Source: Thiomicrorhabdus indica (lineage in GTDB: Bacteria > Pseudomonadota > Gammaproteobacteria > Thiomicrospirales > Thiomicrospiraceae). From it: 64,000 bases of DNA. The position numbers and the translations under genes were made by a program. Within the stretch, counting starts at the first letter, position 1. The number at the start of each line of letters is the position of its first letter. Shown here piece after piece: positions 2,871 through 52,425 of this stretch. Below the pieces are notes generated by a model. The model was given only the letters and a program-made list of their open reading frames with translations, was not told the origin of the DNA and did not search any database. The stretch covers positions 868,001 through 932,000 of the forward strand of contig NZ_CP033040.1 of assembly GCF_004293625.1 (NCBI RefSeq). The letters run 5' to 3'.

Positions 2871-2914
2871 TCGATGATTTAAAGATTTAAAACCTGTTGG
2901 GTGTTTTGGATCTT

Positions 2915-2960
2915 TACCGGCCGGTGAAAACTGTTTACTGTCAATTTTCACCGGCCGGTA
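2915..2960. terminator. Bidirectional hairpin made of two facing ACCGGCCGGT palindromes
   Basis: The 16-nt arm at 2915-2930 is the exact reverse complement of 2945-2960, with a 14-nt loop. Each arm carries one exact palindrome (2916-2925 and 2950-2959) plus its GAAAA tail. It lies between convergent ppiC and the SYLF gene, the right place to stop transcription from both sides. The T-run after it is weak, so terminator activity is inferred. Confidence 0.75.
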
Positions 2961-2997
2961 TATTTAATGTATTGTAAAACCTGATTAAAGTTAGACG

Positions 2998-23593: not shown

Positions 23594-25081
23594 GTGTTGA
23601 AATTGACGTTCATTAAACAGATCTTTCGTTTTTTTGGATTGTTAGGCGCGGCAATATTGGTAAGCATGTGGTCATCTGTAGTCTATTCCCAAGGAGCGAA
23701 TGTTACGGAAGTGGCTTTGAAGACAAATTTGCCAACTTCTGCAGCCCATGTTTTACCTAACGCACGCTTGAATTTACAACGCCTTAAAGCGTCCAAAGAA
23801 TTTCAAAAGCTCTTATCAATTGAGCAAGCAAGCTTTGCGCTCTACCGTTCCAATTGGGCACCATTATATGTGAATAATCAAAATTTACCGTTAATTCCGG
23901 CCTCGACCACCAAAATCCTCACGGCCTATTTAGCGCTTCAACATTGGGGAAGCGATCATCATTTTTACACAGATTTTGTTATTGAGGTCTTACCTTCGAA
24001 GGCGCAAGAGCCGGCCGGTAAAAGAGTGAATTCTCGTCAAGCAAATTTATGGATTAAAGGCTACGGTGATCCATTTTTAACCTCTGAAGAAATTGCTTTA
24101 ATGGCTAAACATCTTCATCAGCAACTCGAACGGCTTGGCGTGAATCAAATTGTCAGTGTAAATTTAGATAGCCGTTTTTATGATGCTGAAATTGACATTC
24201 CAGGAGCGTCCAAAAGCGACAATCCTTATGATGCGATTCCGACGGCGATTGCCGCCAACTTCAATACGGCTTTTCTGGAATGGAATGGCACGAGTTGGCA
24301 GAGTGCTGAGCCGCAAACGCCGATTACTCAAGTGGCGATTGATGCGGCAAATAAGCGATTCTTACCGGCCGGTAAGAAGGCTAAATCCCATATCCCCCTA
24401 AAAAAGGGCTTTAAAACACGAATTAACTTGGGCTTTAATCCTAAAAACAACGAAAAACACTTTGTTCAGCTATTACTCGCTCTTTTGAATAAAGAGTTGG
24501 CGCGAGACCAAAGCCCATATCCAGTGAAATTAAATAGTGTTGAAGTAAACTGGCAGGCTTTAGAACCTTCATGGGTGTCCAACTTGCAAAGTATTTCTCA
24601 ATCAAAAAGCATTACTAGATGGCGCTACCGAAATTCTAAAAACCTTCAGCAGGTTTTAGTCCCCATGTTGAAATATTCGACGAATTTTATTGCTAATCAA
24701 TTAGCGTTGAATTTGGCGGCAGAGCACTATTCTTTGCCGGCTGGTGAACGTTTGGTGACTCGTTATTATCAGGATGCTATAGGGAATTGGTTAGTAGGAG
24801 CCAATTTCGAAGAAGGGGCGGGATTATCTCGTCAAAATCAAATAACAGCTGAAAAATTATCATTTTTATTGAAAGCTTTTTTTCCTTACCGAGAGCTATT
24901 GCCCAGAGTTTCCAAAGGGGTGTATGCAAAATCTGGTACCTTACATGGCGTGACCACCTTGGCAGGCTTTATTGACAAAAATGGAAGAAGTTTTCCTTTT
25001 GTGTTGATGGTGAATGAACCGGTTGCTTATAAATTTCGAAATCGATTTATCCAGGCTGTCCGAGATGCTCTAGAGATTTAG
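23594..25081 (+). CDS. dacB: D-alanyl-D-alanine carboxypeptidase/endopeptidase, PBP4 (S13) type
   Basis: Periplasmic penicillin-binding protein that trims or cleaves peptidoglycan cross-links. The three active-site motifs are present: SxxK at S104-K107 (PASTTKI), SxN at S362-N364 (YSTNF) and KSG at 446-448 (AKSGTLHG, where Ser replaces the more usual Thr). Residues 1-34 form a signal peptide (hydrophobic LLGAAILVSMWSSVV, ending near YSQG). The GTG at 23594 is the first start; TTGs at 23597 and 23603 are alternatives. One exact palindrome and two variants all encode PAG (EPAGKR, LPAGKK, LPAGER) in surface-like loops. Confidence 0.87.
   Translation: MLKLTFIKQIFRFFGLLGAAILVSMWSSVVYSQGANVTEVALKTNLPTSAAHVLPNARLNLQRLKASKEFQKLLSIEQASFALYRSNWAPLYVNNQNLPLIPASTTKILTAYLALQHWGSDHHFYTDFVIEVLPSKAQEPAGKRVNSRQANLWIKGYGDPFLTSEEIALMAKHLHQQLERLGVNQIVSVNLDSRFYDAEIDIPGASKSDNPYDAIPTAIAANFNTAFLEWNGTSWQSAEPQTPITQVAIDAANKRFLPAGKKAKSHIPLKKGFKTRINLGFNPKNNEKHFVQLLLALLNKELARDQSPYPVKLNSVEVNWQALEPSWVSNLQSISQSKSITRWRYRNSKNLQQVLVPMLKYSTNFIANQLALNLAAEHYSLPAGERLVTRYYQDAIGNWLVGANFEEGAGLSRQNQITAEKLSFLLKAFFPYRELLPRVSKGVYAKSGTLHGVTTLAGFIDKNGRSFPFVLMVNEPVAYKFRNRFIQAVRDALEI
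24359..24378. repeat. ACCGGCCGGT palindrome extended to 20 bp, in dacB
   Basis: The core 24364-24373 is flanked by TTCTT and AAGAA, making a perfect 20-bp palindrome. Read as PAG (LPAGKK). The longest perfect symmetrical copy in the window. Confidence 0.95.
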
Positions 25082-25213
25082 TTAGTCGATTTATTAAATT
25101 ATTGAAGACCCATAAAGTTTTTGGTTGAGGTTTACTTTAGTGAATTGTCATAATGCCTGTCGACTATTCACTGGGCTAATTAAAGATTTCTCCCTTTTTA
25201 TTATTAAATCCTT

Positions 25214-25219
25214 TAGAAT
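25214..25219 (+). promoter_or_regulatory. -10 element of rnpB
   Basis: TAGAAT lies seven bases before the predicted 5' end of RNase P RNA. No good -35 match is visible 17 bases upstream. Confidence 0.55.
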
Positions 25220-25225
25220 CTGCGC

Positions 25226-25601
<376 letters not shown>

Positions 25602-26207
25602 ATTTTTCTTTAATGACAGTGTTTTCTTATCTTACATTCTCTAGTGTTTAGATTTTGTTTGGGAATTCAATTTGCCTCAAACTCCTCCAAAATGAATTTT
25701 TAGGTTAAATTTTAGGGATTTCACCCCACCTTAATAATTTTTAGGGAATATTCCCCACTTTTTCAAAAAACCTTTCTTTTCCCAATCGATTTTCTTGTCT
25801 ATTAGTTGGTTTTTCTGTGTTTTATTTCTTGGTTATTGCCTACAAAGGTATTGGCAACCCGTCTATTAATAGTGAAAAGCTAAGAGTAGAAAAAAAACAA
25901 TTAAAATATTTTTTAATTATTTTAGTCGGTCGTTTGGCTCTTGATTTTATTGTGAAGAAATAAAATGTTGGAAACTACATCTAGTGTTAGCTGAGTTTTT
26001 ACTTAACTATATCTGCCTCTTGTTGCATCGGTTTTAAGCTTGAGACTCAAATGCTTGTCTTAAAAACCTGTTCTTAACTTGATCTAAAGAAAGGCTCAAT
26101 AACTCGATGAAAATAAAAGAAAATCATTGGTTTTTAAGTGTGGTTTTAGGGTTTGAAAAGCGCAACTAAGTCATTGTCTTTTCTATAAAAAACGGCCTGT
26201 CCGCAAG
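25602..26207. other. AT-rich gap between rnpB and mraZ
   Basis: About 600 bp without a convincing gene. It contains the rnpB tail, a pair of similar 20-bp AGGGA...CCCC elements (25710-25758) and long AT tracts around 25880-25970, and ends at the mraZ promoter. Confidence 0.6.
25710..25758. repeat. Tandem pair of TTTTAGGGA-N6-CCCCAC-like elements
   Basis: 25710-25729 and 25739-25758 match at 16 of 20 positions and are spaced 29 bp apart. The second contains the perfect palindrome GGGAATATTCCC (25744-25755). They could be a pair of protein-binding sites; no factor can be named. Confidence 0.45.
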
Positions 26208-26236
26208 TTGACACCCCTAAGCAAACTGAATATAGT
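26208..26236 (+). promoter_or_regulatory. Sigma-70 promoter of mraZ
   Basis: TTGACA (26208-26213), a 17-bp spacer and TATAGT (26231-26236). The predicted start is near 26243. The TTGACA hexamer coincides with an in-frame TTG upstream of mraZ, which therefore cannot be the translation start. Confidence 0.88.
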
Positions 26237-26268
26237 GGTGCCAAGTGGTAATAAGTGGTGGATTGTGG
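26235..26268 (+). promoter_or_regulatory. MraZ operator: four GTGG boxes at exact 10-bp period
   Basis: GTGGT at 26235, 26245 and 26255 and GTGGC at 26265 repeat every 10 bp. MraZ is known to bind direct repeats of this type upstream of its own gene in E. coli (three boxes with 5-nt spacers) and Mycoplasma. Box 1 overlaps the -10 hexamer and box 4 reaches the ribosome-binding region, so repression of transcription start is expected. Confidence 0.88.
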
Positions 26269-26276
26269 CGAGTTTG

Positions 26277-26738
26277 ATGTCATTTCGCGGAAATTACGCC
26301 CTTTCAGTTGATGCAAAGGGACGCATGGCGATCCCGAAAAAGTTTCGGGATGTGGTAGCAGTCGAAAGTAATAATGCGATTGTGTTGACCATTGACGTCT
26401 CCAAGAAATGCTTAAGTCTCTACTTAGAACCCGAGTTCAGCGAAAAAGAAGAACAAATTATGAACTTAAAAGGGGCGGTGCAAAACCCCATTGTTCGTGA
26501 TTTGCAACGTGTTTTTGTTGGTTTGGCTCACACACTGGAACTAGATGGACAAGGCCGTTTTTTGGTACCTAAGTCGATTCAGAAGTTTTTTCCGCTTGAG
26601 AAATCGATGGTTCTGGTTGGTCAAATGTCTCGATTCGAGATTTGGCGTGAAACTGACTGGGATGCATTTTTGGCGGAAGCTTTTGCAGAAGAAAGTGGTA
26701 ATGAAACGACCGAAGCGCTTGACGATTTGGTGCTATAA
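26277..26738 (+). CDS. mraZ: Transcriptional regulator MraZ
   Basis: First gene of the dcw cluster. A ring-shaped DNA-binding repressor that controls its own operon. The ATG at 26277 gives MSFRGNYALSVDAKGRMAIPKKFRD, the canonical start with the first AbrB-like domain and its DxKGR motif. The second domain repeats it as LDGQGRFLVPKSIQ. 153 residues is normal. The open frame extends upstream through the promoter but that part is not translated. It sits on its own operator array. Confidence 0.96.
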   Translation: MSFRGNYALSVDAKGRMAIPKKFRDVVAVESNNAIVLTIDVSKKCLSLYLEPEFSEKEEQIMNLKGAVQNPIVRDLQRVFVGLAHTLELDGQGRFLVPKSIQKFFPLEKSMVLVGQMSRFEIWRETDWDAFLAEAFAEESGNETTEALDDLVL

Positions 26739-26773
26739 CTTTTTCACAATGCAATTAGATTTAGGGGTTTGAT

Positions 26774-27700
26774 TTGTCTCAAAGTATCCATTACTCAGTG
26801 TTACTTAAAGAGTCCGTGGAGGCTTTGGCCATTCGACCTGATGGAATTTACATTGACTGTACCTTCGGTCGGGGTGGTCACAGTCGTGAGATCCTGTCGA
26901 AGCTGGGTGATTCTGGGCGCTTAATGGCGATTGATCAAGACCCCCAAGCGGTGGAATATGCAAATCAGCAAATAAATGATGCGCGTTTTGAAATTCAGCA
27001 AGGCTCTTTTGAAAATTTGAAAGATTACTGCCAGTCACGTGATTGGATTGGCAAAGTTGATGGAGTTTTACTCGATTTGGGGGTTTCCTCACCACAGCTT
27101 GACCAAGCAGAGCGAGGGTTTAGTTTTATGCGAGAAGGTCCTTTGGATATGCGCATGGATACGAGTCAAGGTTTAACCGCTAGAGAGTGGTTGGCAGAAG
27201 TTGAAGAGAGTGAACTCAAACGGGTTTTAAAAACTTATGGCGAAGAACGTTTTTCTGGTCGAATCGCAAGGCATATTAAAGAAGCGATTGGAGACGGCAA
27301 ACTTCATACAACAAAAGAATTAGCGGATTTAGTGACACAAGTGTCGCCAAAAACTGAAAAAAATAAACATCCAGCCACTCGAACATTTCAGGCAATTCGT
27401 ATTGCTGTGAATCGTGAATTAGATGTGCTGGAAAATGTTTTAACCTCGGCTGTAGAAGTCTTGGCTCCGAAAGGACGGTTGTCAGTGATTAGTTTTCACT
27501 CTCTAGAGGATCGGATCGTTAAAACATTTATTCGAGATAAATCTCGTGTTCAAGATTTATATCCGGAGTCGCCGATTCCAATGGGTGTCATTGAACCGAT
27601 TATTAAACGCATTGGAAAGCCAGTTTTTCCAAGCAAGCAAGAATGTGCAGAGAATGGTCGTTCGCGAAGTTCGGTGCTCAGAATTGCAGAAAAACTATAA
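26774..27700 (+). CDS. rsmH: 16S rRNA (cytosine-1402-N4)-methyltransferase
   Basis: Also called MraW; methylates N4 of C1402 in 16S rRNA. Interestingly rsmI, which methylates the same nucleotide's ribose, is also in this window. It has 308 residues with [27 protein letters not shown] (SAM motif I), [37 protein letters not shown] and [13 protein letters not shown]. The start is a TTG at 26774, preceded by TTAGGGG. Second gene of the dcw operon, 35 nt after mraZ. Confidence 0.96.
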
Positions 27701-27787
27701 CTGTAAAGCATTGCTGAAGCAGTACCGGTCAGAAAAGGCCAATAAACATCATCCAATACAACGCTATATCAGATTGAGGTAGGACAA

Positions 27788-29248
27788 ATGAGTAGTATTA
27801 AATTTACCGAAACCGAAGACTCCGGCTACAAAGTGCCTGGACTTCCAGTTATCAAAGTTGTCGGTCTTGGCGGCGGCGGCGGTAACGCTGTAAACTTTAT
27901 GAAAAACTCCAATATTCCTGGAGTGAATTTTATTTGTGCTAACACGGATGCTCAAGCGTTGGATCAGTCGCCAGTTGAAGTTCGTATTCAATTAGGTGAA
28001 GGTGGTCTGGGCGCTGGTGCAATGCCAGATCGTGGTCGAAAGTTCGCAGAAGCCCATATTGATGAGATTCGTGAACAGCTTCAAGGCGTTGATATGGTGT
28101 TTATTACGGCCGGAATGGGTGGTGGAACAGGAACCGGTTCTGCACCAGTTTTTGCTCGTGTTGCTCGTGAGATGGGAATTCTAACCGTGGGTGTTGTGAG
28201 TATGCCATTCTCATTCGAGCGTCGCATGAAAGCCGCAAAAGCCGGTGTGAACGATTTGGCTGAACATGTGGATTCTCTGATTACCGTACCAAACGATAAG
28301 TTATTAAAAGTATTGGGTGAAAGTTTTGATTTCGGACAAGCCTTTAACTATGCAAATGAAGTCTTGTCGGATGCTGTTTTAGGAATTACTGAACTGGTTA
28401 CGCGCCCTGGTATTATCAATGTCGACTTTGAAGATTTACGAACGGTTATGAGTGAGCGTGGTGTCGCAATGATGGGGGCAGGGATTGCCGAAGGTGAAAA
28501 CCGAGCTGTTAAAGCAACGCAAAAAGCGATTGCAAATCCGCTGTTAGAAGATATAGCTGTTGATGGCGCTCGAGGTTTGTTGGTTAATATTACGACGGCA
28601 AATAACTTAACTTTAGGTGAGTTCAATCAGGTTGGTGACATCATTGAAGATGTGACGGATGATGAAGCGGTCGTTATTATTGGTACTTCGGTTGACCCTG
28701 AAATGAACCCTGAAGATATTCGTGTGACAGTTGTTGCAACCGGCCTTACGGAAGTTAACCAAGATAGAAATGTAGATAAGTTACCAAAAGCAACAATTAA
28801 TCAACGACCAACTGAGCAAGAACAGGTTGTTGAGCCTCAAGCAGCTGTGCATCAAGCGCAACCGGCTGTTCACGCTCAGCAGGCACAGTCACCTCATGTA
28901 CAAGCTCCACAAACGGTTGCTCCGAATTATACTCAGCCAGCGGTCGATTCAAACTATCAGACTCAGGCAGCTCCAGTTCAAACGCCTAGCTATCAAACAC
29001 AGTCTGCTCCTACTGCTCAACAATCGGTAGCACAGCCAGAAGTGGTCACACCTCAATTCCAGCAGGCAGCGGCACAATCTCACGCTATGCCAAATGAGTC
29101 TATGCAGCCACAGGCGGTTCCGACAGAATCAATGTCGATTCAAAATGATGGCTTTGCTCAGAATCAACAGCAAGTGAACGGTGCACCTCAACAAAGTACG
29201 ATGGAAATGCTTGATATTCCAGCTTTTATTCGCCGACAACTTGACTGA
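27788..29248 (+). CDS. ftsZ: FtsZ, in an unusual position between rsmH and ftsL
   Basis: The tubulin-like GTPase that forms the cytokinetic ring. 486 residues. The nucleotide-binding GLGGGGGNAV (T1), the tubulin signature GGGTGTG at 111-117 (T4) and the T7 catalytic-type NVDFEDL at 211-216 are intact. A linker of about 140 residues (335-472), very rich in Gln, Ala and Pro, leads to the conserved C-terminal peptide LDIPAFIRRQLD, which normally binds FtsA and ZipA. All elements expected of a working protein are present. ftsZ is normally after ftsA; ftsA is at the window's right edge, so a second ftsZ may follow there. A GAGGTAGG site precedes the ATG and a strong terminator follows. Confidence 0.95.
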   Translation: MSSIKFTETEDSGYKVPGLPVIKVVGLGGGGGNAVNFMKNSNIPGVNFICANTDAQALDQSPVEVRIQLGEGGLGAGAMPDRGRKFAEAHIDEIREQLQGVDMVFITAGMGGGTGTGSAPVFARVAREMGILTVGVVSMPFSFERRMKAAKAGVNDLAEHVDSLITVPNDKLLKVLGESFDFGQAFNYANEVLSDAVLGITELVTRPGIINVDFEDLRTVMSERGVAMMGAGIAEGENRAVKATQKAIANPLLEDIAVDGARGLLVNITTANNLTLGEFNQVGDIIEDVTDDEAVVIIGTSVDPEMNPEDIRVTVVATGLTEVNQDRNVDKLPKATINQRPTEQEQVVEPQAAVHQAQPAVHAQQAQSPHVQAPQTVAPNYTQPAVDSNYQTQAAPVQTPSYQTQSAPTAQQSVAQPEVVTPQFQQAAAQSHAMPNESMQPQAVPTESMSIQNDGFAQNQQQVNGAPQQSTMEMLDIPAFIRRQLD

Positions 29249-29279
29249 TTAGATAAGGCAAAGTAATTGATGATGTTGG

Positions 29280-29320
29280 ACACTCAAATATCAATTTTGG
29301 TATTTGAGTGTTGTTTTTTT
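29280..29320 (+). terminator. Strong intrinsic terminator after ftsZ
   Basis: An 11-bp perfect stem (29280-29290 with 29301-29311), a 10-nt loop and TTGTTTTTTT. It lies inside the dcw cluster and should end the mraZ-rsmH-ftsZ transcript, so ftsL onward needs its own promoter in 29321-29489 or read-through. Confidence 0.88.
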
Positions 29321-29489
29321 AACGTTTAAATTTATTTATTGAGTGCTTTATTAACTGCATGGAAGCGAAATAGAGTTTTCAATCAATGGATTTAGAACTT
29401 CTAGGGCATATTGTGAGTTTTCAACAGACCTTAGTGTTCAACTTTCTTTTTCTGGTGAGTCTTTCGGACTTTTCATTCAGGCCATAAAA

Positions 29490-29855
29490 ATGTCACAGCA
29501 AGCTTCGAAAAAACTATTCAAGCACCTATCAAGTTTTCAATTAGGCTTGTTGTTCGCATTGCTCGGAATTTTATTTTTTTTAGCCATCTCCGTTGTCAAT
29601 ATGAAAGAGAAAGTTCGAGTGGTCCAGACTCAGCTCTTTCAAATAAACACTGAAATTCAGCAGCAAAGAGAAAAATGGGGAGAGTTGATGCTGCAGAAAA
29701 CACATCTGGAATCGCCAGCAAAAGTCGAGGTGCTTGCTAAACAAAAACTACGAATGCAGAGTGCCCCTAAAGCCTTTCTGACTATCAAAATTCTTCCAGA
29801 CTCCAATACGCTAAAACCAATGCTCTCTGCAGAGTCAGAAGAGAGGCAAGACTGA
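29490..29855 (+). CDS. ftsL: Cell division protein FtsL
   Basis: Small bitopic division protein that pairs with FtsB and links FtsQ to FtsW/FtsI. 121 residues: cytoplasmic start (1-18), one membrane segment (about 19-36), then a heptad-like coiled coil (40-75) and the periplasmic WGELMLQKTHLESPAKVEVLAKQKLRM block typical of FtsL. Its stop is directly followed by the ftsI ATG, so translation is coupled. Confidence 0.9.
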   Translation: MSQQASKKLFKHLSSFQLGLLFALLGILFFLAISVVNMKEKVRVVQTQLFQINTEIQQQREKWGELMLQKTHLESPAKVEVLAKQKLRMQSAPKAFLTIKILPDSNTLKPMLSAESEERQD

Positions 29856-31877
29856 ATGATTAGTCGGAATTTACGCTCATGGCTGATATTTTTTGTCATC
29901 TTGTTGGCATTTACTGTAGTTGCTTCTCGTGCGATTTATTTGCAAGGTTCAGCAGCCTACAAGAATAAGCTAACCACAGAAGCCGAAAACCGTCACCTTA
30001 GAACGGTGAAACTTCAACCGCCACGCGGTTCGATTTATGATCGACATGGAAATTTGTTGGCATTAAGTACGCGTGTCTATGATGTTATTGTTGATCCGAA
30101 ATATTTGTCCCATCTGCTGGTTAATTATCGAACTTTTTTAAAGCTGGTTCGAGTCAAAGACTCAGAGTTAAAAAATCTGGCAATTGAACAGCGTCATAAA
30201 CGCAAAAGTTTTATTCGTGTTTTGCCAGACAACCCAGAGCTATTGAATCAAATTCGTGAACTCTCTTTGCCAGGAGTTTTTATTAATCGAGTCGATTTAG
30301 AGTGGAAATCACCGGCCGGTAAATCCTTGAGAGTCAGTAAAACGTCACCTTCTTTATGGGTTGACTGGATGGCGATTGAACACTATCGAGCTGCGCCTTA
30401 CAAAATTGCAAAAATTCTTGATCTGAATGGTGAGCAACTTTCCCAAAAAATTCATAAACGAGCAAAGTCTCGTTATTTGGTTGTTAAGCGAGGCGTTCAG
30501 CCAAATTTAAGCTTGGCGATTAAAGACTTATCGCTTCGAGGTGTTTACTTAGAATCAACTTATCGCCGCTACTACCCTCAAGGTGAAAGTATTGCCAACT
30601 TAGTAGGTTTTACCAATATTGATGACAAGGGTGCCGATGGCATCGAGCGATCCTACAATCAGCATTTAACAGGGGTTAATGGCAAGCAACAAGTTGTCCG
30701 CGATGCTCTGGGAAATGTGATTGATGTGGTGAATATTTCACAATCAGCTCAAGCAGGTAAAGATATTCAGCTCGCAATTGATCAGAATATTCAATATTTT
30801 GCTTATAAAACCCTTAAAGAGCAGGTGAATCGGCATGATGCGCAATCGGCATCGGCCGTCATTTTGGATGCAAAAACGGGTGAGATTTTATCCATGGTCA
30901 GCTTGCCGAGCTATAACCCAAATGATCGTTCACAACGTATCGGAAAAGGGGTTCGTAATCGAGCCATTAGTGACTACATAGAACCGGGCTCAACGTTGAA
31001 GCCGTTTGCAATTGCAAAAGGGTTGGAGTATGGCGTGGTGGAGCCTGATTCTGAAATTGATACCGGCCGGGGTGCTTTCTATATTCAAGGTCAACGAATT
31101 ACAGATACCTCCGCGCATGGCAAAATCGATGTGGCGACCATTGTGCAAAAGTCGAGCAATATAGGCACAGCAAAAATTGCATTAAAAATAGATCCAGAAG
31201 TTTATTATCAGGATTTATTGGATTTTGGGTTTACTTCGGCAAGCAATACTTATCTGCCAGGAGAAGTTACCGGTCAAATTAATGGTGCTTTGAATTGGCA
31301 ACCGATTAATCAAGTGACCACATCTTACGGTTATGGAATTAACATGACCACCTTGACACTTGCCAGAGCTTATACAGTTTTCAGCAATCAAGGTCGTTTA
31401 TTGCCGGTGAGTTTGTTTAAACTGGCCCAACCTCCGGAAGGAGAACAGGTGTTGGGCGCACAGGCTGCAGAGACTACGCTTGGAATGATGGAATCGGTTG
31501 CTAAACGTGGAGGCACAGCTCCAAAAGCCGCTATCAAAGGTTATCGTGTTGCGGGTAAAACAGGCACTGTTCACTTAACAGCCTCATCAGGCGGCTATGA
31601 AGGTAATGAATATCTCTCAGTATTTGCAGGTCTGGTCCCTGCTTCAAATCCAGACATGATTATGGTGGTTGCTGTGAAAAAACCGTCACGAGGAATTTAT
31701 TATGGAGGTGCAATCGCTGCACCAGTCTTTCAGAAAGTCATGCAACAAGCGTTACGTATTCGCAAAGTGGCACCGGATGATGAGGCTTGGTTGCCAAAGT
31801 TGACACCGGTAGCGCTACCTTTGACGGAAAACGTCACTTCGAAAAAGTCTGACTCAATGCAAGCTTCTGGAGACTAG
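29856..31877 (+). CDS. ftsI: Septal peptidoglycan transpeptidase FtsI (PBP3)
   Basis: Class B penicillin-binding protein that cross-links peptidoglycan at the septum. One membrane segment (about residues 8-27) precedes the QPPRGSIYDRHGNLLA block of the pedestal domain. Transpeptidase motifs: SxxK at S379-K382 (PGSTLKP), SxN at S433-N435 (KSSNIG) and KTG at 568-570 (GKTGTVH). At 673 residues it is longer than E. coli FtsI (588), with the additional length in the region around residues 100-230. The palindrome at 30311 encodes SPAGKS there. Confidence 0.96.
   Translation: MISRNLRSWLIFFVILLAFTVVASRAIYLQGSAAYKNKLTTEAENRHLRTVKLQPPRGSIYDRHGNLLALSTRVYDVIVDPKYLSHLLVNYRTFLKLVRVKDSELKNLAIEQRHKRKSFIRVLPDNPELLNQIRELSLPGVFINRVDLEWKSPAGKSLRVSKTSPSLWVDWMAIEHYRAAPYKIAKILDLNGEQLSQKIHKRAKSRYLVVKRGVQPNLSLAIKDLSLRGVYLESTYRRYYPQGESIANLVGFTNIDDKGADGIERSYNQHLTGVNGKQQVVRDALGNVIDVVNISQSAQAGKDIQLAIDQNIQYFAYKTLKEQVNRHDAQSASAVILDAKTGEILSMVSLPSYNPNDRSQRIGKGVRNRAISDYIEPGSTLKPFAIAKGLEYGVVEPDSEIDTGRGAFYIQGQRITDTSAHGKIDVATIVQKSSNIGTAKIALKIDPEVYYQDLLDFGFTSASNTYLPGEVTGQINGALNWQPINQVTTSYGYGINMTTLTLARAYTVFSNQGRLLPVSLFKLAQPPEGEQVLGAQAAETTLGMMESVAKRGGTAPKAAIKGYRVAGKTGTVHLTASSGGYEGNEYLSVFAGLVPASNPDMIMVVAVKKPSRGIYYGGAIAAPVFQKVMQQALRIRKVAPDDEAWLPKLTPVALPLTENVTSKKSDSMQASGD
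30311..30320. repeat. ACCGGCCGGT palindrome, copy in ftsI
   Basis: Exact copy read as PAG (SPAGKS), followed by AAA, in the non-catalytic part of the protein. Confidence 0.95.
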
Positions 31878-39226: not shown

Positions 39227-40357
39227 ATGCATAACACCTCAAAAAAACTAAAAATTGTCATTATGGCGGGGGGAACAGGAGGACATGTTTTTCCCGGAAT
39301 TGCGATTGCTCATGAGTTGCAGAAAGCAAATGTAGAGATTCATTGGCTTGGGACACAGGGCGGTTTAGAGAAAAATTGGGTTGAAAAGGCTGGTTTAGAC
39401 ATTTCAGAAATCAGTATTCGTGGTTTACGTGGAAACGGAGCTTTAGGTTGGTTAAAGGCACCGTTCAATATCACGCGAGCGTGGTGGCAAGCCAGAAAAA
39501 TTCTTAAGCAACAGCAGGCAGATTTAGTCTTAGGCATGGGCGGTTTCGTTTGCGGGCCAGGCGGATTGGCGGCAAAGAGTTTAGGTATTCCTTTAATGAT
39601 TCATGAGCAAAATGCCATTCCAGGATTGACGAATAAATTGTTAGCCCCTTTTTGTGAATCGATTATCACGGCGTTTGAACAAGAAAAACTGACGGGTGAT
39701 AAGGTTCATTTAATGGGGAATCCTGTTCGTCAAGGGTTGGAGTCAATTCCCGTTGTGGAATGGAATTCTGACCGGCCGGTAAATTTGTTGGTTTTGGGTG
39801 GAAGTCGCGGAGCTTTGGCATTGAATCAAAATTTACCGAAAGCTTTGGCCTTGTTGCCTGCATCACTCCGGCCAGTTGTGCAACATCAAACCGGAACAAA
39901 AACACTCGAACAAACCCTAGGTTTTTATCAACAAGTTGGGATTGATGCGAATATCACCGCGTTTATTGAAGATATGCAGAGCGCTTATGAGAAAGCAGAT
40001 TTAGTGTTGTGTCGGTCTGGTGCATTGACTGTTAGTGAACTGATGGCGGTGGCGCGTCCTGCCATTATGGTTCCTTACCCTTACGCAGTGGACGATCATC
40101 AAACACAAAATGCGCAGGCATTGGTTGATTTGCAAGGTGGTGAGATTTTGCAAGAGCGTGATATGAATGAAAAAGTCTTAGCAGAACACCTGAATGCTTG
40201 GTTGGCACACCCGGAACGATTGATGCAGGCTTCCAAAATGATACGACAGAATGCCCCTCAACAAGCGTTGGAAAATATTTGTCAGCACTTATTGGATTTC
40301 TGTCAAAGTCGCCAATCCTCTTTGTCTCACTCACAGAAAAATAGCGAGGAAAAATAA
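39227..40357 (+). CDS. murG: UDP-GlcNAc:lipid I N-acetylglucosaminyltransferase
   Basis: Completes lipid II on the inner face of the membrane. 376 residues of GT-B fold: MAGGTGGHVFPGIAIA near residue 14, GMGGFVCGPGG, IHEQNAIPGLTNK, LGGSRGA and the C-terminal donor-site block RSGALTVSELMAVARPAIMVPYP. The TAA stop shares its last A with the next gene's ATG. The palindrome at 39771 encodes DRPVNL just before the second domain. Confidence 0.96.
   Translation: MHNTSKKLKIVIMAGGTGGHVFPGIAIAHELQKANVEIHWLGTQGGLEKNWVEKAGLDISEISIRGLRGNGALGWLKAPFNITRAWWQARKILKQQQADLVLGMGGFVCGPGGLAAKSLGIPLMIHEQNAIPGLTNKLLAPFCESIITAFEQEKLTGDKVHLMGNPVRQGLESIPVVEWNSDRPVNLLVLGGSRGALALNQNLPKALALLPASLRPVVQHQTGTKTLEQTLGFYQQVGIDANITAFIEDMQSAYEKADLVLCRSGALTVSELMAVARPAIMVPYPYAVDDHQTQNAQALVDLQGGEILQERDMNEKVLAEHLNAWLAHPERLMQASKMIRQNAPQQALENICQHLLDFCQSRQSSLSHSQKNSEEK
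39771..39780. repeat. ACCGGCCGGT palindrome, copy in murG
   Basis: Exact copy read as RPV (DRPVNL), followed by AAA. Confidence 0.95.
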
Positions 40358-41136
40358 TGAAAGGCTTACAGGGACGCAGAGTTTTCATTACTGGAGCTTC
40401 TAGCGGTATTGGTGCTGGTATGGCAAAGGTACTAGCAGGTTATGGATGCAAATTGGTGTTGCATTACAATCGCAACGAAAAAGGCATTGTTCAAACTCTT
40501 GCGACGGTAAAAGAGATGGGGGGCGAGGCTGAAATTATTCGTGGTGATTTTGAACAGTTAGATCAATTAGACAAACTTTTTGAGCAAGCCTGGCAATTTT
40601 TTGGCGGCTTAGATGCGTTGGTCAATAATGCCGGCTTAATTACCAAAACTTTATCCTTAAAAGACCCGGCCGGTGAAAAGTTTTCGCGCACCTTAGCAGT
40701 CAATCTTCATGCGCCTTATCAATTAAGCTGTGCTTTTGCAAAAGCCTGTATTGAGGCCAAGCAAGCGGGTGCGATTGTCAATAACTCAAGTATTCATGGA
40801 CAAGCGACGTGTGAATGGTTTGCTGCTTATGCGGCATCTAAGGCGGCTTTGGATGCAGTTACAAAAGTTCAGGCGATTGAATGGGGGAAGTACGGCATTC
40901 GTGTCAATGTGTTGGCGCCTGGCGTGGTTCCTGTGGAGCGCACATTTGATATTTTAAACAAGCCTGAAATGGAACAAAAGTGGACGAATGCCATGCCTGC
41001 TGGTCGTTATGGAACCGTTGAAGAAATGGGTGAAGCGACCGCTTATCTATTATCGGAACATTCAAGCTGGATGAGTGGCTCAATTCTTACTTTGGATGGA
41101 GGTCTGATTGCGAGAGGGAATTATCCTCAACGTTAG
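40357..41136 (+). CDS. Short-chain dehydrogenase/reductase coupled to murG
   Basis: A 259-residue classical SDR. TGASSGIGAGMA is the cofactor loop, NNAG the structural motif, and NNSSIHGQ...YAASK supplies the catalytic Ser, Tyr and Lys. The NRNEK after the second strand hints at NADPH. It ends with LDGGLIARGNYPQR, like glucose-1-dehydrogenase or 3-oxoacyl-reductase relatives; the substrate cannot be named. The ATG overlaps the murG stop by one base, so it is translated with murG. No SDR is a usual member of the dcw cluster. Confidence 0.85.
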   Translation: MKGLQGRRVFITGASSGIGAGMAKVLAGYGCKLVLHYNRNEKGIVQTLATVKEMGGEAEIIRGDFEQLDQLDKLFEQAWQFFGGLDALVNNAGLITKTLSLKDPAGEKFSRTLAVNLHAPYQLSCAFAKACIEAKQAGAIVNNSSIHGQATCEWFAAYAASKAALDAVTKVQAIEWGKYGIRVNVLAPGVVPVERTFDILNKPEMEQKWTNAMPAGRYGTVEEMGEATAYLLSEHSSWMSGSILTLDGGLIARGNYPQR

Positions 41137-41430
41137 GTTGTAGTGATGGACTTTCAAAACTTGCCAATTGTGTTCATGTTTTCTGGTGTTTTTCCTGTTT
41201 AAGTGTCAGGCTGTTCTCTGGCCGGCACCCTTCATTTTATTATTCAAATACATTTCTTTTTTTATGCACGTCAAATCAGTTTTTTAGCACTTAATGTTTT
41301 TAAGCCATTGTTTTTGTTGTGTTTATTTAGTTTATGGTCTTTTGTTTGCTTGAGTCTTTTCAATAACGACGTATAAGGTTAAATTGATAATAATTTAGCC
41401 TTAATAGATTTGAAAATGAAGGCAGTTACA
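41137..41430. other. Gap ending the first dcw block
   Basis: About 290 bp of AT-rich sequence between the SDR and chemoreceptor genes. No gene or convincing terminator was seen; a promoter for the chemoreceptor gene is expected here. Confidence 0.4.
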
Positions 41431-43467
41431 ATGACGCAGTTTTTATCAGGCTTAAGTATTGAGAAAAAAATTCGTTACGGTTTTGGTGTAATTTGGATTG
41501 CACTAGCGGTGATTACGCTTCAAGCTGTGGTGAACCTTTCAATGGTGCGCTTCAACATTACCGAGGTGATTACGGAGAAGCAACCGATTGTTCTGAAAGT
41601 TCTAGAGATGAAAGCATCTTTGGAGCAAACTCGAAATTCACTGAGTATTGCGTTACTTCTCAAACAGCCCGAACTACTGAATGCCTATGAGCAAAAGTTA
41701 AAAGCATTCGAACTCACCGTTTCAGAGCTGGATGCTTCAAGTCAAAATTCGACCGATTCAAAACTCACGGAAAACTTTGCAAATCTGTCGTTAGCGATGA
41801 AAACGTTGCACTCGGAATTGGAAGAAATTGAAAGCCTTCAATCCAAATACAGCAATAATTACCCTGCTTTTGAATACAGTAATGAAAAACTTCTTCCTTT
41901 AGCAGTACGCTTACAACAGCTATTGACTGAAATTGTAAATTCAGAGCTTGAGGAAGTTGGAACTGAGCGGGAAGAAATTCTTTCTCTGACCATTGATTTG
42001 CAAAAAACATGGTTAAACGTCATGAATGCGTTACGAGGTTATATGGCATTTCGTACCGATGAAATGTCGGAAATGACGGAAAATTATTTGGATCAAATGG
42101 AGCAGTCACTGATTCAGTTGAAACAGTATTCTCAAAATGATCCTAATGTCGATTTAACCTTGGTTGAAGAAGAATCAATTGATCGTGCGATTGAGATCTA
42201 TCAAGAGTATCGTGAAGTTTACATGGTCATGAAAAGCATTCATTCTGGCGAGAAATGGCGGATGGATACATGGCTAATGAAAAATAAAATCCAACCTGTT
42301 TTTGAGAAAATGGAGCAGGAATTACAAGTGATTGCTGACCAGTTCCTGTTGGGGGTAGAACAACAAAGTGAGTCTGTAGTGGACAGTAGTTTTTGGAATA
42401 TTATTCTTTTACTGTTGTTCTCTGGAATAGGGCAATTATTTGCCATGCGCGTTTCAAGCCGAATCACGAAAGAAGTTGTCGAACCTATTTCTACCGTTTC
42501 CCAAGCAATGGCAAATATTGCCGAGGGTCAAGGGGATTTAACGAGTCGTCTGCCTGTTAAAAGTCATGATGAAATTGGCAAAATGGCAGAACACTTTAAT
42601 CAGTTTATTGGTCGAATTCAGGCAATGTTGACCAAAATTCAACAAACGATTGTCAAACTTGAAGGAGCCTCTTCGCATTTGAACGATATTACTCAAACCA
42701 TGAGTGATGGTGCTCAGCAGCAACTTGAATCCAGTTCTGTATTGAGCAATTCCATGTCACAAATGGCAGGACAGTCTAAAGAGGTTGAAGCGCATTCGCA
42801 AAATACTTCTCGTGCAACGCATCAAGCAACTGAGAGAGTGAAAGAGAGTAGTGAGCAAGTGGTGGACGCGGTGAATGAGATTCAGCGTTTGTCAGAAAAT
42901 ATGCAGCAAATGACGCAATCGGTGATGGAGTTACGTGCGGATAGTCAGATGATTGGCAGTGTGATTTCGGTGATCCGTGAAATTGCAGAACAGACGAATT
43001 TGTTGTCCTTGAATGCGGCTATTGAGGCAGCTCGAGCGGGAGAGCATGGTCGTGGGTTTGCCGTGGTAGCAGATGAAGTTCGTGCTTTGGCAAACAGAAC
43101 TCAAGAATCTACAGGTGAAATTCAAGCCATTATCGATAAGATTTGCAAAACAACCCAAAAAACCGTTGCAGTGGTTGAGCAAGGTCGAGAAGTCACGCAA
43201 ACCAGTGCTCAAATTATTCAAGAGAGTAAAACCAAAATCGGTCCAGTGACGATCCTAATGGAAGATATCAATAAAATGTCTGAGAAAGTGTTGGCGGTTG
43301 CGCACTCGCAGACATTGTTATCTCAGCAGGTAAATCAAAATATTCAACAGATTCATGGCGTTGCAGAAACCGCAGCTTCAGGGGTTGAAAAAACGGATGC
43401 AGCCGCGTCCGATTTACAAAAGCTTGCACAAGAACTGGATGGATTGGTTAGACAGTTCAAAATTTAA
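41431..43467 (+). CDS. Methyl-accepting chemotaxis protein
   Basis: Membrane chemoreceptor of about 678 residues. Membrane segment 1 lies near residues 15-35, a helical periplasmic sensor domain spans about 36-310 and membrane segment 2 is near 325-342. HAMP follows ([27 protein letters not shown]), then a signalling domain whose hairpin tip is [35 protein letters not shown]. The ATG at 41431 has an AAGG site; the frame extends to 41410. The ligand is unknown. No CheR-binding pentapeptide is seen at the C-terminus (ends VRQFKI). Followed by a palindrome-pair terminator. Confidence 0.9.
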
Positions 43468-43503
43468 GCAAATAGTTCTCAGTTTCCACATTTTTAAGAA
43501 AGC

Positions 43504-43547
43504 AATACCGGCCGGTTTGACTCAATTTAACCGGCCGGTATTCTTTT
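43504..43547 (+). terminator. Terminator made of two facing ACCGGCCGGT palindromes
   Basis: Arms 43504-43517 and 43529-43542 are exact reverse complements (14 bp) around an 11-nt loop, followed by CTTTTT. The palindromes are 43507-43516 and 43530-43539. Of the three pairs this one has the clearest T-run and sits after the chemoreceptor gene. Confidence 0.87.
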
Positions 43548-43626
43548 TAGCCCTCCAATAAACCCACAGTTTGTTATTATTTCGCTTCAGATAATTTCTT
43601 TACTATTCTATTTGAGAACAAACTTT

Positions 43627-44481
43627 ATGTGGTCTTATCCCGAAATTGATCCAGTTGCTGTAGCGATTGGTCCTTTGAGTATTCACTGGTATGGGCTGAT
43701 GTACTTGATCGGTTTTACAGGCGCTTTCTTGATTGGTGTTTATCGAGCAAAACGTATTGAACCTTGGAATTCCGACTTTGTTGGGGATTTACTGTTTTAT
43801 GGTGCAGTGGGGGTCATTCTTGGTGGAAGGCTTGGCTACATTCTCTTCTATGATCTTGCCCATTATCTTGAAGCGCCCTTGGATGTTTTTAAAGTATGGC
43901 AGGGAGGAATGTCTTTCCACGGCGGTCTGTTAGGTGTTGCGATCGCCACATGGTTGTTTGCAAAGAAAACAAATCAAACATTATTCTCTGTTTGGGATTT
44001 CGTTGCAGTCATGGCGCCAATTGGGCTTTTAACCGGCCGGGTAGGGAATTTTATCAACGGTGAGTTATGGGGGAAAGTCACTGATTCACCATTTGGCATG
44101 CTTGTTTATGATTCAAGTTTGAACGCGGTGGTTGCCAAATATCCGACGCAGCTTTTAGAGGCCTTTCTGGAAGGATTGGTCTTGCTAGTACTTCTATTGT
44201 GGTATTCCCGAAAACCAAGGCCGTTTGGTTCGGTGGCAGGTTTGTTTTTAGTTGGCTACGGTTTTTTCCGGTTCTTTGTCGAATTTTATCGGGTGCCAGA
44301 TGTTCAAATTGGCTACTTGTATGGCGAGTGGCTCACTATGGGGCAGGTTTTATCTACACCAATGATATTGGCTGGTTTGGGCTTAATGATTTATGCACAC
44401 AAAAAGCAATCATCCCCACATTATCGTAGTCCTGAAGAAATTCAGGCGCTAAAATCTGTTGAAAAAGAAACAAAGGATTGA
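43627..44481 (+). CDS. lgt: Prolipoprotein diacylglyceryl transferase
   Basis: Transfers diacylglycerol to the lipobox Cys of lipoproteins such as LpoA. About 284 residues from ATG 43627 (frame opens at 43612). Seven or so membrane segments. Conserved GGRLGYILFYD, SFHGGLLGVA and the signature LTGRVGNFINGELWG, plus the late RFFVEFYRVPD. A one-mismatch palindrome at 44032 spells TGR within the signature motif. thyA follows after 6 nt, an order seen in several Gammaproteobacteria. Confidence 0.96.
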   Translation: MWSYPEIDPVAVAIGPLSIHWYGLMYLIGFTGAFLIGVYRAKRIEPWNSDFVGDLLFYGAVGVILGGRLGYILFYDLAHYLEAPLDVFKVWQGGMSFHGGLLGVAIATWLFAKKTNQTLFSVWDFVAVMAPIGLLTGRVGNFINGELWGKVTDSPFGMLVYDSSLNAVVAKYPTQLLEAFLEGLVLLVLLLWYSRKPRPFGSVAGLFLVGYGFFRFFVEFYRVPDVQIGYLYGEWLTMGQVLSTPMILAGLGLMIYAHKKQSSPHYRSPEEIQALKSVEKETKD

Positions 44482-44487
44482 TGAGCA

Positions 44488-45321
44488 ATGCGCCAATATT
44501 TAGATTTACTGAAACATATTTTAGAAAACGGTACTCAAAAAGGTGATCGAACAGGCACAGGGACGATTTCGGTATTCGGTTATCAAATGCGTTTTGATTT
44601 GCAGGAAGGTTTTCCGTTAGTCACCACCAAAAAACTGCATATTCGTTCGATCTTGCATGAGCTGTTGTGGTTTTTAAAAGGTGATACCAATATTAAATAT
44701 CTCAAAGAAAATGGTGTGCGAATTTGGGATGAATGGGCGACCGAAGAGGGGGAGCTTGGACCTCTTTATGGCAAACAGTGGACTGCTTGGGAAAAGCCAG
44801 ATGGGCAAACGATTAATCAAATTGCTGAAGTGGTTGAAACCTTAAAAAATAACCCTAACAGCCGTCGGATGATTGTATCGGCATGGAATCCAGCCGATTT
44901 GCCGGATGAGACGATTTCACCGCAAGAAAACGTTAAGCAAGGGCGAATGGCGCTGGCAACCTGTCACGCTTTTTTCCAGTTCTATGTCGCCAATGGTAAA
45001 TTGTCGTGCCAGCTTTATCAACGCAGTGCCGATACCTTTCTTGGCGTGCCGTTTAACATTGCCAGCTATGCATTACTGGTGCATATGATTGCCCAACAGT
45101 GCGACTTAGAAGTGGGTGATTTTATCTGGACTGGGGGGGATGTACATTTGTACAACAACACGATTGATCAGGCAAAAACTCAAATTCAGCGTGAGCCTTT
45201 TTCTTTGCCCAAATTAGTGATTAAGCGTAAACCGAATTCGATTTTTGAGTATGAATTTGATGATTTTGAGATTTTAGATTACGAGGCGCATGCACACATT
45301 AAAGCCACCGTTTCAGTCTAA
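44488..45321 (+). CDS. thyA: Thymidylate synthase
   Basis: Methylates dUMP to dTMP with methylene-tetrahydrofolate. 277 residues. Signatures: [66 protein letters not shown] and DVHLYNNT. The catalytic Cys159 is in an ATCHAFF context; the usual residue before it is Pro, and Thr is found here. About twelve extra residues (SPQENVKQG region) precede it. The operon partner is lgt. Confidence 0.95.
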
Positions 45322-45462
45322 GATAAGTGCCGTTCACTCTTTTTTAGAAGAGAATATAAATAAGTTGTCTAATAGTTTGATTTATCTCAATTCATCGAAT
45401 GAATAATATTTTAATATGAAGAGACAATTTTGTCGGTGAATGATAGAAGAAGGTGTCTTCGA

Positions 45463-47619
45463 ATGCGTAAATCTTACTTTTTTGTAATCGTGTTGGTTGC
45501 ACTGACAATCTTTGCTGGGTATGGAAAACAATGGTTTTTTCTAGATTCTGATCCAGTTTCCTCTGAATTTCAGCTCGATAACCAGCAGAAAATTACGCTT
45601 CGATTTGGTCACAATACCCCCGAAGATAGCGCGCTTCATCAAGCCGCTCTACGCTTTGCAGCCATTGTCCAAGAGAAAACAAATAACCAAGTTCAGGTTG
45701 ATGTTTTTCCGTCTCAGATATTAGGTAATGACCATAAAATGGTTGAAATGGCTCGAGAGGGAAAGCTTGATATTCTCCTGACACCGACTGCAAAAATGAG
45801 TGTACCTCTTCCGGCTATGCAATATGCCGATCTGCCATTTTTCTTTCCCTCTCGTGAAGATACCTACGCTTTGTTAGATGGTGAACCCGGAAGACTGTTA
45901 CTTGATAAGCTAGATAAAATCGATTTAGTCGGTGTGACGTTTTGGGAAAACGGATTTAAGCACTTTACTGGAAATACCCCATTTCTTGAGCCATCCGACT
46001 TTGCGGGTAAGAAAATACGAGTCATGAAAAGTGACATTATTATGGATCAGTTTCGTTCCCTTGAAGCGGAGCCTGTGCCAATTGATTTTCACGCTACTCG
46101 TCAAGCGCTCTTAGATAAAGCTGTCGACGGTCAGGAAAATCCACTGGTTGCAATTGTTAGTATGGGGTTTCATGAAGTTCAGTCTGATTTTGTTCTTAGT
46201 GAGCATGCATATTTAGGTTATGTCTTTTCCATCAGTAAAAAAGTATTCAATCAGTTACCACAAGACGTGCAAATTGTTTTGATTGAGACGGCTAAAGAGG
46301 TGACACCATGGGAACGAGAAGAAACTCAAAGAAGGGAACAAGGTTTACTAGCCAAAATTCGTGAGGCCGGTGTAAGAATTCATACTTTAACGGCAGATCA
46401 GCGACAGGCATTTGTTGATAAAGTCTCTTGGATTGCTAAGGCTGCTGAAGGGGTTATAGGCGTTGACATCATGTCTAAGACTGATGAGTATTTGCAGGAT
46501 AAATATGGACCGACTCCCGAGTCTAAACAGCAAGTGGTAATTGGATTGAATGCTGATTTGTCTATGGATGGCAAAGGTCTTGTTGGTTTGGCATTTAAAA
46601 GAGGAATTGAGTTAGCTTTGGATGAAATTAACAGCCAAGGTGGCGCTCTCGGAAAGCCAATGAAGTTAATCGCTCGAGATCACCGAATTACTTCGAGTAT
46701 GGGGATTAATAATTTACAGTATTTTTCTGCTCGTGAAGATGTGCTTGCGGTGATTGGTGGGAAACAAAGCGCGGTGATTGTCGAGGAACTTCCCTATATT
46801 CAAGAAAGTAAGATGCCGTACTTAATCCCTTGGGCAACCCTGCCTGAACTGACAGAAAATGGTTATCAAGACAGTTATGTTTTCCGTTTATCTGTGAATG
46901 ACCGTTATGTTTCACCTTTTTTTGCGAAATATGTAACCAAGCGCTTCAAGCAAACGGCAATAATTGTGGAGAACACTGTATGGGGGCGTAGCAATTTAGA
47001 GAGTATTGCCAAACATATGACAGATAATGGCGTAGCGCCAGAAGTACTCATTACGCTGAATCGAGGGCAAAAGGATTTGACTAGGGAGTTTAATCAGGTT
47101 TTGGAAGCTAAGTGCGACTCGATTATGTTAGTGGTTGACAGTAATGATGGTGCCAATTTTATTGAGAGACTGGCACAACTTGATTCTTCACCGGTTGTGA
47201 TTTCTCATTGGGGGGTTATGGGAGGAAATTTTTATGAAAAGGTTGGGCATTTGCTGCCAAATTTAGACTTTCGGTTTTTTCAAACGGATTTAGCCATCAC
47301 TAAACGTTCTAGGTTTAATGATTTAATGGCACGTTATCGTCAGAGCTATCATCTTGAGAAAGATGAAACTATTCTTTCATCAATTGCGGTTGCCCGTGCG
47401 TATGATTTAACCCACTTGATTGCGTTAGCAGTTGAACAGGCGGGAAGTTATGATAGGTCTGCAGTGAAGCATGCATTGGAAAACTTACCGGCTTATGAGG
47501 GCGCGCTAAAAAATTATTCCAAACCATTCAGTAAAGGCAATCATGACGCTCTAAAAGATGAAGGTTTTTTTATGGCGCGTTTTAATCATACTGGGACGAT
47601 TGTTCCTGTGAGCAAGTAG
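45463..47619 (+). CDS. Fusion of two periplasmic binding proteins (DctP-like + LivJ-like), membrane-anchored
   Basis: About 718 residues. A hydrophobic stretch (residues about 5-22 from ATG 45463) is a signal or anchor. Residues about 40-340 look like a TRAP-type DctP protein: LRFGHNTPEDSALHQAALRFAA, VDVFPSQILGNDHKMVEMAREG, DLPFFF, FKHFTGN and GQENPL. Residues about 360-718 look like a type I receptor of the branched-chain amino-acid family: IGLNADLSMDGKGLVGLAFKRGIELALDEINSQGG and AVIGGKQSAVIVEELPYI. No transporter genes are near. A GGDEF-EAL gene follows after 9 nt, so a sensory role is likely. The open frame starts at 45430; I chose the ATG. Confidence 0.82.
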   Translation: MRKSYFFVIVLVALTIFAGYGKQWFFLDSDPVSSEFQLDNQQKITLRFGHNTPEDSALHQAALRFAAIVQEKTNNQVQVDVFPSQILGNDHKMVEMAREGKLDILLTPTAKMSVPLPAMQYADLPFFFPSREDTYALLDGEPGRLLLDKLDKIDLVGVTFWENGFKHFTGNTPFLEPSDFAGKKIRVMKSDIIMDQFRSLEAEPVPIDFHATRQALLDKAVDGQENPLVAIVSMGFHEVQSDFVLSEHAYLGYVFSISKKVFNQLPQDVQIVLIETAKEVTPWEREETQRREQGLLAKIREAGVRIHTLTADQRQAFVDKVSWIAKAAEGVIGVDIMSKTDEYLQDKYGPTPESKQQVVIGLNADLSMDGKGLVGLAFKRGIELALDEINSQGGALGKPMKLIARDHRITSSMGINNLQYFSAREDVLAVIGGKQSAVIVEELPYIQESKMPYLIPWATLPELTENGYQDSYVFRLSVNDRYVSPFFAKYVTKRFKQTAIIVENTVWGRSNLESIAKHMTDNGVAPEVLITLNRGQKDLTREFNQVLEAKCDSIMLVVDSNDGANFIERLAQLDSSPVVISHWGVMGGNFYEKVGHLLPNLDFRFFQTDLAITKRSRFNDLMARYRQSYHLEKDETILSSIAVARAYDLTHLIALAVEQAGSYDRSAVKHALENLPAYEGALKNYSKPFSKGNHDALKDEGFFMARFNHTGTIVPVSK

Positions 47620-47628
47620 GTTCCCCTA

Positions 47629-49935: not shown

Positions 49936-50026
49936 TTTTGGATATGGCTTTTTAAGAAGTGAAATTCAGCCTACAGAGGCTATAAAAGACATTTTAAAAT
50001 GACAAAAACATTGAGCAGACAGAAGA

Positions 50027-50536: not shown

Positions 50537-50551
50537 TTTGTCACCAAATTA

Positions 50552-50561
50552 ACCGGCCGGT
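50552..50561. repeat. ACCGGCCGGT palindrome between folA and znuB
   Basis: Exact solitary copy in a 75-bp convergent gap, followed by AAAGA. No partner copy is nearby, so it does not form the long hairpin. Confidence 0.95.
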
Positions 50562-50611
50562 AAAGATGAGCCTCGCCAGTAGAGCGACATTTTCTGTGAC
50601 AAGCTTTTGTC

Positions 50612-52347: not shown

Positions 52348-52425
52348 TGGGAAAGCTCATTTGCGTGGGTTAAATTCGTTAGAATTATAGCTCTAAATTT
52401 GTTGAAAATTAAAGGTGAAAACCCA

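Follow-up and report, generated by a model that had tools for sequence, protein, structure and literature searches.

Background

Among bacterial gene orders, the placement of ftsZ behind ftsA is one of the more strongly conserved, and the level of FtsZ helps to set the timing of cell division. In Mycoplasma genitalium, the reduced division cluster is given as mraZ-mraW-MG_223-ftsZ and loss of MraZ raises FtsZ about 25-fold (PMC8475190). PMC7761207 describes a single promoter before mraZ that drives all genes to ftsZ in Burkholderia cenocepacia, and an E. coli MraZ that acts on the genes from mraZ to murC. The same two sources present MraZ as a repressor in E. coli and M. genitalium (PMC8475190, PMC7761207), and PMC9395523 reports that deletion of mraZ lowers dcw gene expression in Neisseria elongata; as the loss of MraZ raises FtsZ in M. 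genitalium but lowers dcw genes in N. elongata, the sign of its effect is not to be assumed.

Here we analysed a 64,000-nucleotide stretch of Thiomicrorhabdus indica DNA (hereafter the window) for which the initial annotation had described a complete ftsZ between rsmH and ftsL and the start of ftsA at the window end, both of which were borne out (Table 1). It had also considered a cell with two FtsZ proteins, one of them under MraZ control. We find instead that the genome's only ftsZ has been relocated, and that this early position goes back to the ancestor of the Hydrogenovibrio order, to which Thiomicrospira and Thiomicrorhabdus also belong.

Results

The ftsZ locus and its protein

An intact ftsZ open reading frame was found with rsmH on one side, at a distance of 87 bp, and ftsL on the other, and mraZ, rsmH and ftsZ all run in the same direction. 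The relatives' rsmH places used to identify rsmH are those in which TIGR00006 detects such genes. For mraZ, the ATG at 26277 is a likelier start than the TTG at 26208 given in the list of reading frames, which coincides with the -35 hexamer of the promoter-like site. Rfam at gathering threshold over 25000-30500 matched RNase P at 25228-25603 and nothing else.

Table 1. Features of the ftsZ locus (window positions)
Feature	Position	Strand	Remarks
Promoter-like site, upstream of mraZ	26208-26236	+	TTGACA-17-TATAGT; 11/12 consensus matches
Four GTGG repeats, MraZ-box-like	26235-26268	+	10-bp spacing; first repeat overlaps the end of the -10 hexamer
mraZ, transcriptional regulator	26277-26738	+	PF02381, TIGR00242 over cut-off
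rsmH (mraW), 16S rRNA methyltransferase	26774-27700	+	ORF; identity from the initial annotation and match to relatives' rsmH places
ftsZ	27788-29248	+	486 aa, ATG to TGA; sole copy in the genome
Terminator-like hairpin, directly after ftsZ	29279-29322	+	15 pairs and T run; -18.8 kcal/mol, z -5.5, 0/200 shuffles as good
ftsL	29490-29855	+	PF04999, TIGR02209 over cut-off
ftsA start	63381-64000, running off the window end	+	TIGR01174, PF02491

The encoded protein lies above the TIGR00065 ftsZ cut-off (374.9 vs. 295.2 bits) and also passes PF00091 and PF12327. The intact GTPase motifs, very long Gln/Ala-rich linker and C-terminal peptide noticed at the outset are all present: the GTPase signature GMGGGTGTG, the T7 loop NVDFED with its catalytic Asp residues, a 155-aa linker (36% Gln+Ala) that joins the core to the C-terminal peptide, and the peptide itself, LDIPAFIRRQ. 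A Foldseek search with the predicted model (pTM 0.78, mean pLDDT 77.5) returned E. coli and Klebsiella FtsZ as the best solved-structure matches, which is consistent with a tubulin/FtsZ fold. We would expect the protein to polymerise and hydrolyse GTP as FtsZ ordinarily does and to bind its partners via the C-terminal peptide, and we infer from the sequence that it is the sole Z-ring protein.

Among the 57 full FtsZs (out of 60 in the order) used for the comparison of linkers and loops, the 155-aa linker is the longest, the order median being 83 aa with 22% Gln+Ala. The five next-longest measure 128 to 149 aa; linkers of 128-155 aa occur in G000, G011, G020, G026, G024, and G013, and the other 51 full FtsZs of the order have at most 98 aa. 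As the four other long-linker FtsZs present in the tree cluster with the window FtsZ (93/80), the long linker may have a single origin.

Further downstream, the dcw cluster is interrupted from murG to murC by about 19 kb of mostly non-dcw genes (window 40357-59354), with a short-chain dehydrogenase, a chemoreceptor, lgt, thymidylate synthase, dihydrofolate reductase, an ABC-3 permease, SUF genes, and a class V aminotransferase. A TRAP-type DctP solute-binding domain is fused there to an ABC-type periplasmic binding domain (Peripla_BP_6, 45430-47619), followed by a gene for a GGDEF-EAL protein (47629-49935), an arrangement that resembles a dual sensory input to a c-di-GMP enzyme.

Copy number and position across the order

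The window genome consists of one contig of 2.83 Mb with an estimated completeness of 99.99%, in which a whole-genome protein search and a PF00091 search each returned one FtsZ, the next PF00091 row reaching only 15.3 bits against a cut-off of 33. Past position 64000, ftsA is followed directly by lpxC (L002: ftsA 882-2153, lpxC 2332-3342), with no ftsZ between them.

The order was sampled with 62 genomes from one family and seven genera. FtsZ was detected in 60 of them, always as a single copy and nowhere as two complete copies; in G023 and G073 the single FtsZ was read as two pieces on two contigs, and no FtsZ was found in G008 (95% complete, 8% contaminated) or G074 (84% complete). Adjacency of rsmH and ftsZ was seen in 59/60 ftsZ loci, the exception (G023) being a contig end, and ftsA was adjacent to lpxC in 58 of 60 ftsA loci (a set that includes G008 and omits G006 and G074), where both exceptions, G004 and G072, are again contig ends. 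FtsL is too short for tblastn, which therefore misses it in many loci of the order; in the most divergent genus (L065), the reading frames rsmH, ftsZ, and ftsL follow one another, separated by about 23 and 29 bp. In G035 (L066, L073) the dcw cluster is split into two blocks far apart on one chromosome contig, mraZ-rsmH-ftsZ-ftsI-murE-murF and murC-ddl-ftsQ-ftsA-lpxC.

The FtsZs of the order formed one clade in three trees, with an SH-aLRT of 94 (a tree that omits L039, a partial FtsZ, and L047, an ftsA locus), an SH-aLRT of 98 (omitting L284 and L286), and 99/97 in the third. The early position is thus not only common in the clade but fixed in the order, and with lpxC rather than ftsZ behind ftsA, the alternative raised in the initial annotation, a relocated single copy, is the one that holds.

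Promoter, MraZ-like boxes, and hairpin

The region 25900-30000 contains nine promoter-like sites, which is not above shuffled sequence (mean 7.3, sd 2.8), and apart from the one before mraZ no site exceeded 9/12. The three-box GTGG pattern matched twice in the window against 0.03 expected. Likewise, 3-5 TGG repeats with 10-bp spacing, starting about 34-60 bp before mraZ, were present in 50/50 readable loci of the order (53 of 60 loci were read, and G012, G028, and G029 were left out for slicing artefacts at the locus ends). Periodic boxes of the kind that would mark an MraZ-regulated operon are therefore found here, and ftsZ would most likely be transcribed from the promoter before mraZ, which the putative MraZ boxes overlap, so that the dose of FtsZ would be tied to MraZ and uncoupled from ftsQA. 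We infer that MraZ binds at this site, with an effect of either sign, and that ftsZ is co-transcribed with mraZ. Of the earlier proposal of two FtsZs with one under MraZ control, this second half gains support from the promoter-like site, the periodic GTGG boxes, and the co-directional mraZ-rsmH-ftsZ, all of it at the level of sequence.

The hairpin behind ftsZ is one of six terminator-like sites in the scanned region, a number not above shuffles (mean 4.4, sd 2.0). The gap between ftsZ and ftsL is 241 bp, the largest of 57 measured (the other 56 range from 9 to 179 bp), and no promoter-like site was found on the + strand between hairpin and ftsL. In this species, the hairpin would make mraZ-rsmH-ftsZ a nearly closed unit and could let FtsZ exceed FtsL and FtsI. 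An order-wide terminator after ftsZ was also considered and rejected, with matches in 3/59 loci (G000, G003, and G027), the latter two lacking a clean T run.

Position of ftsZ in the Gammaproteobacteria

In an evenly drawn sample of 132 gammaproteobacterial genomes (at least 90% complete), 124 had FtsZ, 123 FtsA, and 121 both, and the starts of ftsZ and ftsA lay within 2.5 kb on one contig in 114 of these 121. The seven exceptions are two members of the order and the genomes G149, G098, G187, G092, and G130. In four of the five outside the order, ftsZ lies near mraZ, rsmH, or ftsI: G187 has mraZ-rsmH-ftsZ as in the order, G149 ftsZ-mraZ-rsmH, G092 ftsZ-rsmH, and G098 ftsI-ftsZ-murE; in G130, ftsZ stands among non-dcw genes. 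An ftsA-lpxC junction without ftsZ was present in G149, G098, and G187, and lpxC was not seen behind ftsA in the stretches read of G092 and G130. Among the matches listed, ftsA precedes ftsZ in 80/80 named records, an outgroup set that was not drawn at random, is not exhaustive, and contains no recognisable member of the order. Six MraZ-type repeats were found in G149 (L272, from 3354) ahead of ftsZ (from 3443) and mraZ (from 4630), so that the boxes precede ftsZ-mraZ-rsmH. No such repeats were seen in the stretches read of G098, G187, and G092; the L273 stretch begins at mraZ.

None of the five exceptional FtsZs joined the order clade in the FtsZ tree. That of G130 is placed with seven canonical rows in a starred group, and those of G149, G098, G187, and G092 have no settled place, the last three being on long branches. 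Judged by the grouping of G130 with canonical rows, at least one move of ftsZ outside the order is separate from that of the order, and the differing gene orders among the exceptions suggest further separate moves.

Several genomes of this sample gave unusual FtsZ results. In G106 (L291:1454-2887), a 477-aa protein directly behind rsmH looks by eye like a badly degenerate FtsZ, with VIGIGNNGCQN, VTFLATGI, and the end IAFLERQ, and no GGGTGTG; it gave no Pfam FtsZ match, a weak hhalign match to the FtsZ alignment (13.7% probability, E 0.002, 72 columns), and an AlphaFold model with a mean pLDDT of 33.8, and no other FtsZ was found in this genome though FtsA is present. G155 (L282, L289; one contig, 1.45 Mb, 100% complete) has mraZ, rsmH, and ftsA-lpxC, and no FtsZ by protein, PF00091, or TIGR00065 search; its FtsZ may be very divergent. 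Searches of G040, G054, G084, G099, G112, and G173 (at least 96% complete) gave no match to FtsZ (E 0.001) or FtsA (E 1e-40); five of these genomes were also negative with PF00091 and TIGR00065 (G054 lying outside the TIGR00065 search), and G173 gave only an 11-bit row; assembly gaps may explain these absences. G124 has a second, distant FtsZ-like stretch (C15:32236-32691, 29% identity, E 2e-13) besides a normal FtsZ on contig 8.

Changes in the T3, T5, and T7 loops

Compared with four PDB FtsZ chains and most outgroups, the FtsZs of the order have a T3 shortened by three residues (x-Thr-Lys/Arg, missing ahead of GLGAG) and a T5 shortened by two (missing between Glu and Arg). Their T7 reads NVDFED in place of NVDFAD, the Ala flanked by the catalytic Asp residues being replaced by Glu. 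The usual length and sequence of these loops, which are common to the family and do not define it, are thus not kept in the window FtsZ. By count back from Gly72, the lost residues would correspond to Thr66 and residue 67 of S. aureus FtsZ, which fits an entry title naming T66W.

The T3 deletion and the T7 Glu occurred together in 59/59 readable FtsZs of the order (G059 fails the T3 regular expression only by Phe for Leu, with the deletion present). Among 123 non-order rows, pooled from two genome sets with possible overlap, 113 kept Thr plus Lys, Arg, or a variant in T3 with Ala in T7, and four, all betaproteobacterial (L108, L121, L122, and L156), had both deletion and Glu. One of the remaining rows has Ser, four are unreadable in T7 (L155 and three T7 loops), and in L261 T3 is three residues shorter with Thr-Lys kept and Ala in T7. 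Another alignment with 92 non-order rows comprised four with the T3 deletion only, three with the two-residue T5 deletion only, three with a one-residue T5 deletion, 82 with neither, and none with the T3 and T5 deletions together. As each deletion occurs singly outside the order, neither alone could be upheld as unique to it, and the T5 deletion, found alone in L085, L111, and L127, is not part of the T3/T7 pair. All alignment columns (106 rows) were screened for states carried by all four betaproteobacterial rows and by at least 90% of 14 rows from the order, and by no more than 8% of 88 others. This singled out only the T3 gap, with its three columns, and the T7 Glu, none of which occurs in those 88. 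The record L105, titled Rhodoferax sp. OV413, has an FtsZ that falls among gammaproteobacteria and not betaproteobacteria, and is possibly a mislabelled or mixed assembly.

The four betaproteobacterial FtsZs fell in a betaproteobacterial clade (100/100) and those of the order in their own (99/97). A tree joining the two was rejected (p-AU 9.8e-8) in an AU test that used a subset of 41 rows, excluded T3, T5, and the T7 Glu column, and took its grouping from the trait. Given this rejection, the pair of changes probably arose twice, and two independent gains would suggest that the changes are coupled. According to PMC8936486, in S. aureus filaments the attacking water is held by T7 Asp residues of one subunit and the T3 Gly72 of the next, T3 is rearranged when D210 of T7 is mutated, and hydrolysis requires Arg143. 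On this water-holding geometry, T3 and T7 would face each other across the subunit contact, and by analogy it is plausible that the two changes are a compensatory pair.

Discussion

What stands is the order-wide relocation of a single ftsZ into an MraZ-proximal operon, together with an unexpected pair of active-site changes. In the common ancestor of the order, ftsZ would have left its site between ftsA and lpxC and settled third, as mraZ-rsmH-ftsZ-ftsL. We consider it very probable that the single gene moved between mraZ-rsmH and ftsL in that ancestor and is read, most likely, from the MraZ-boxed promoter. One conceivable route, which we put forward as conjecture, would be tandem duplication of the cluster followed by loss of one copy of each gene; it would yield the early ftsZ and equally mraZ-rsmH-ftsZ-ftsL, ftsZ-mraZ-rsmH, and ftsI-ftsZ-murE.

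Other explanations of the early ftsZ were weighed against this relocation. A pair of FtsZs, one encoded early in the cluster and the other after ftsA, was conceivable as long as the DNA at hand ended within ftsA, and nothing was found in its favour; with one FtsZ genome-wide by both protein and PF00091 search, an ftsA-lpxC junction, and no genome of the order with two complete copies, it was rejected and its probability is close to nil. An origin of the front ftsZ in a betaproteobacterium, whose gene would have replaced the resident one, would account for the T3 deletion and T7 Glu common to the order and the four betaproteobacterial FtsZs, but the latter are encoded in ftsA-ftsZ clusters, the two groups form separate clades, and the AU test, run without the columns in question, speaks against the joint tree; we rejected this transfer as highly improbable.

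Somewhat more weight, though still an unlikely reading, is due to an ftsZ that sits within the mra operon and is driven mainly by a promoter of its own, its position having little regulatory meaning. The 87 bp before ftsZ would leave room for this, a 9/12 promoter-like site lies inside rsmH (26988-27016), and E. coli ftsZ has local promoters; against it, the 9/12 site is no better than shuffles, the loci read consistently retain the mraZ-rsmH-ftsZ arrangement and the boxes, and in G149 ftsZ follows directly behind MraZ-type boxes. Transcription of a relocated ftsZ from the promoter before mraZ is the reading we retain.

More tentatively, and with rather more doubt than confidence given the unsettled tree positions of G149, G098, G187, and G092, the MraZ operator may have captured ftsZ more than once in the Gammaproteobacteria (in the order and in G149), and a compensatory T3/T7 pair may have arisen twice (in the order and in the betaproteobacteria). 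If so, the dose of FtsZ became an MraZ-controlled quantity more than once, and the loss of Thr-Lys/Arg in T3 and the Ala-to-Glu change in T7, which lie on opposite sides of the FtsZ-FtsZ contact, would be a natural compensatory pair in a composite GTPase site. In the open-licence PMC literature, mostly judged by title, no title addressed the position of ftsZ in this order or the T3/T7 pair. With ftsZ beside mraZ, the order provides a natural experiment that bears both on the reasons for keeping ftsA next to ftsZ and on the role of MraZ. The paired change can be regarded as a double mutant produced by evolution where two FtsZ subunits meet at the catalytic site; should both halves be harmful singly and the pair not, this would show how the T3 and T7 loops cooperate in GTP hydrolysis.

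Compared with known systems, the locus shares with the canonical dcw cluster of E. coli and most Gammaproteobacteria the same genes on the same strand, with mraZ and rsmH first and ftsQ-ftsA before lpxC, and differs in that ftsZ, which lies there between ftsA and lpxC, is third here. With M. genitalium it has in common an ftsZ close behind mraZ and mraW (PMC8475190); M. genitalium, however, belongs to an unrelated wall-less lineage that has lost most dcw genes, whereas the cluster studied here is complete, with ftsZ moved. In B. cenocepacia, ftsZ expression is reported to depend on the MraZ-regulated promoter before mraZ (PMC7761207), as would be the case here, but its ftsZ keeps the usual place at the operon's far end. 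The FtsZs of Azonexus (L108), Dechloromonas (L122), Aquabacterium (L156), and a Burkholderiaceae genome (L121) resemble those of the order in the three-residue T3 deletion and the T7 loop NVDFED, and are unlike them in an ftsZ placed after ftsA, a T5 of normal length, and their separate clade.
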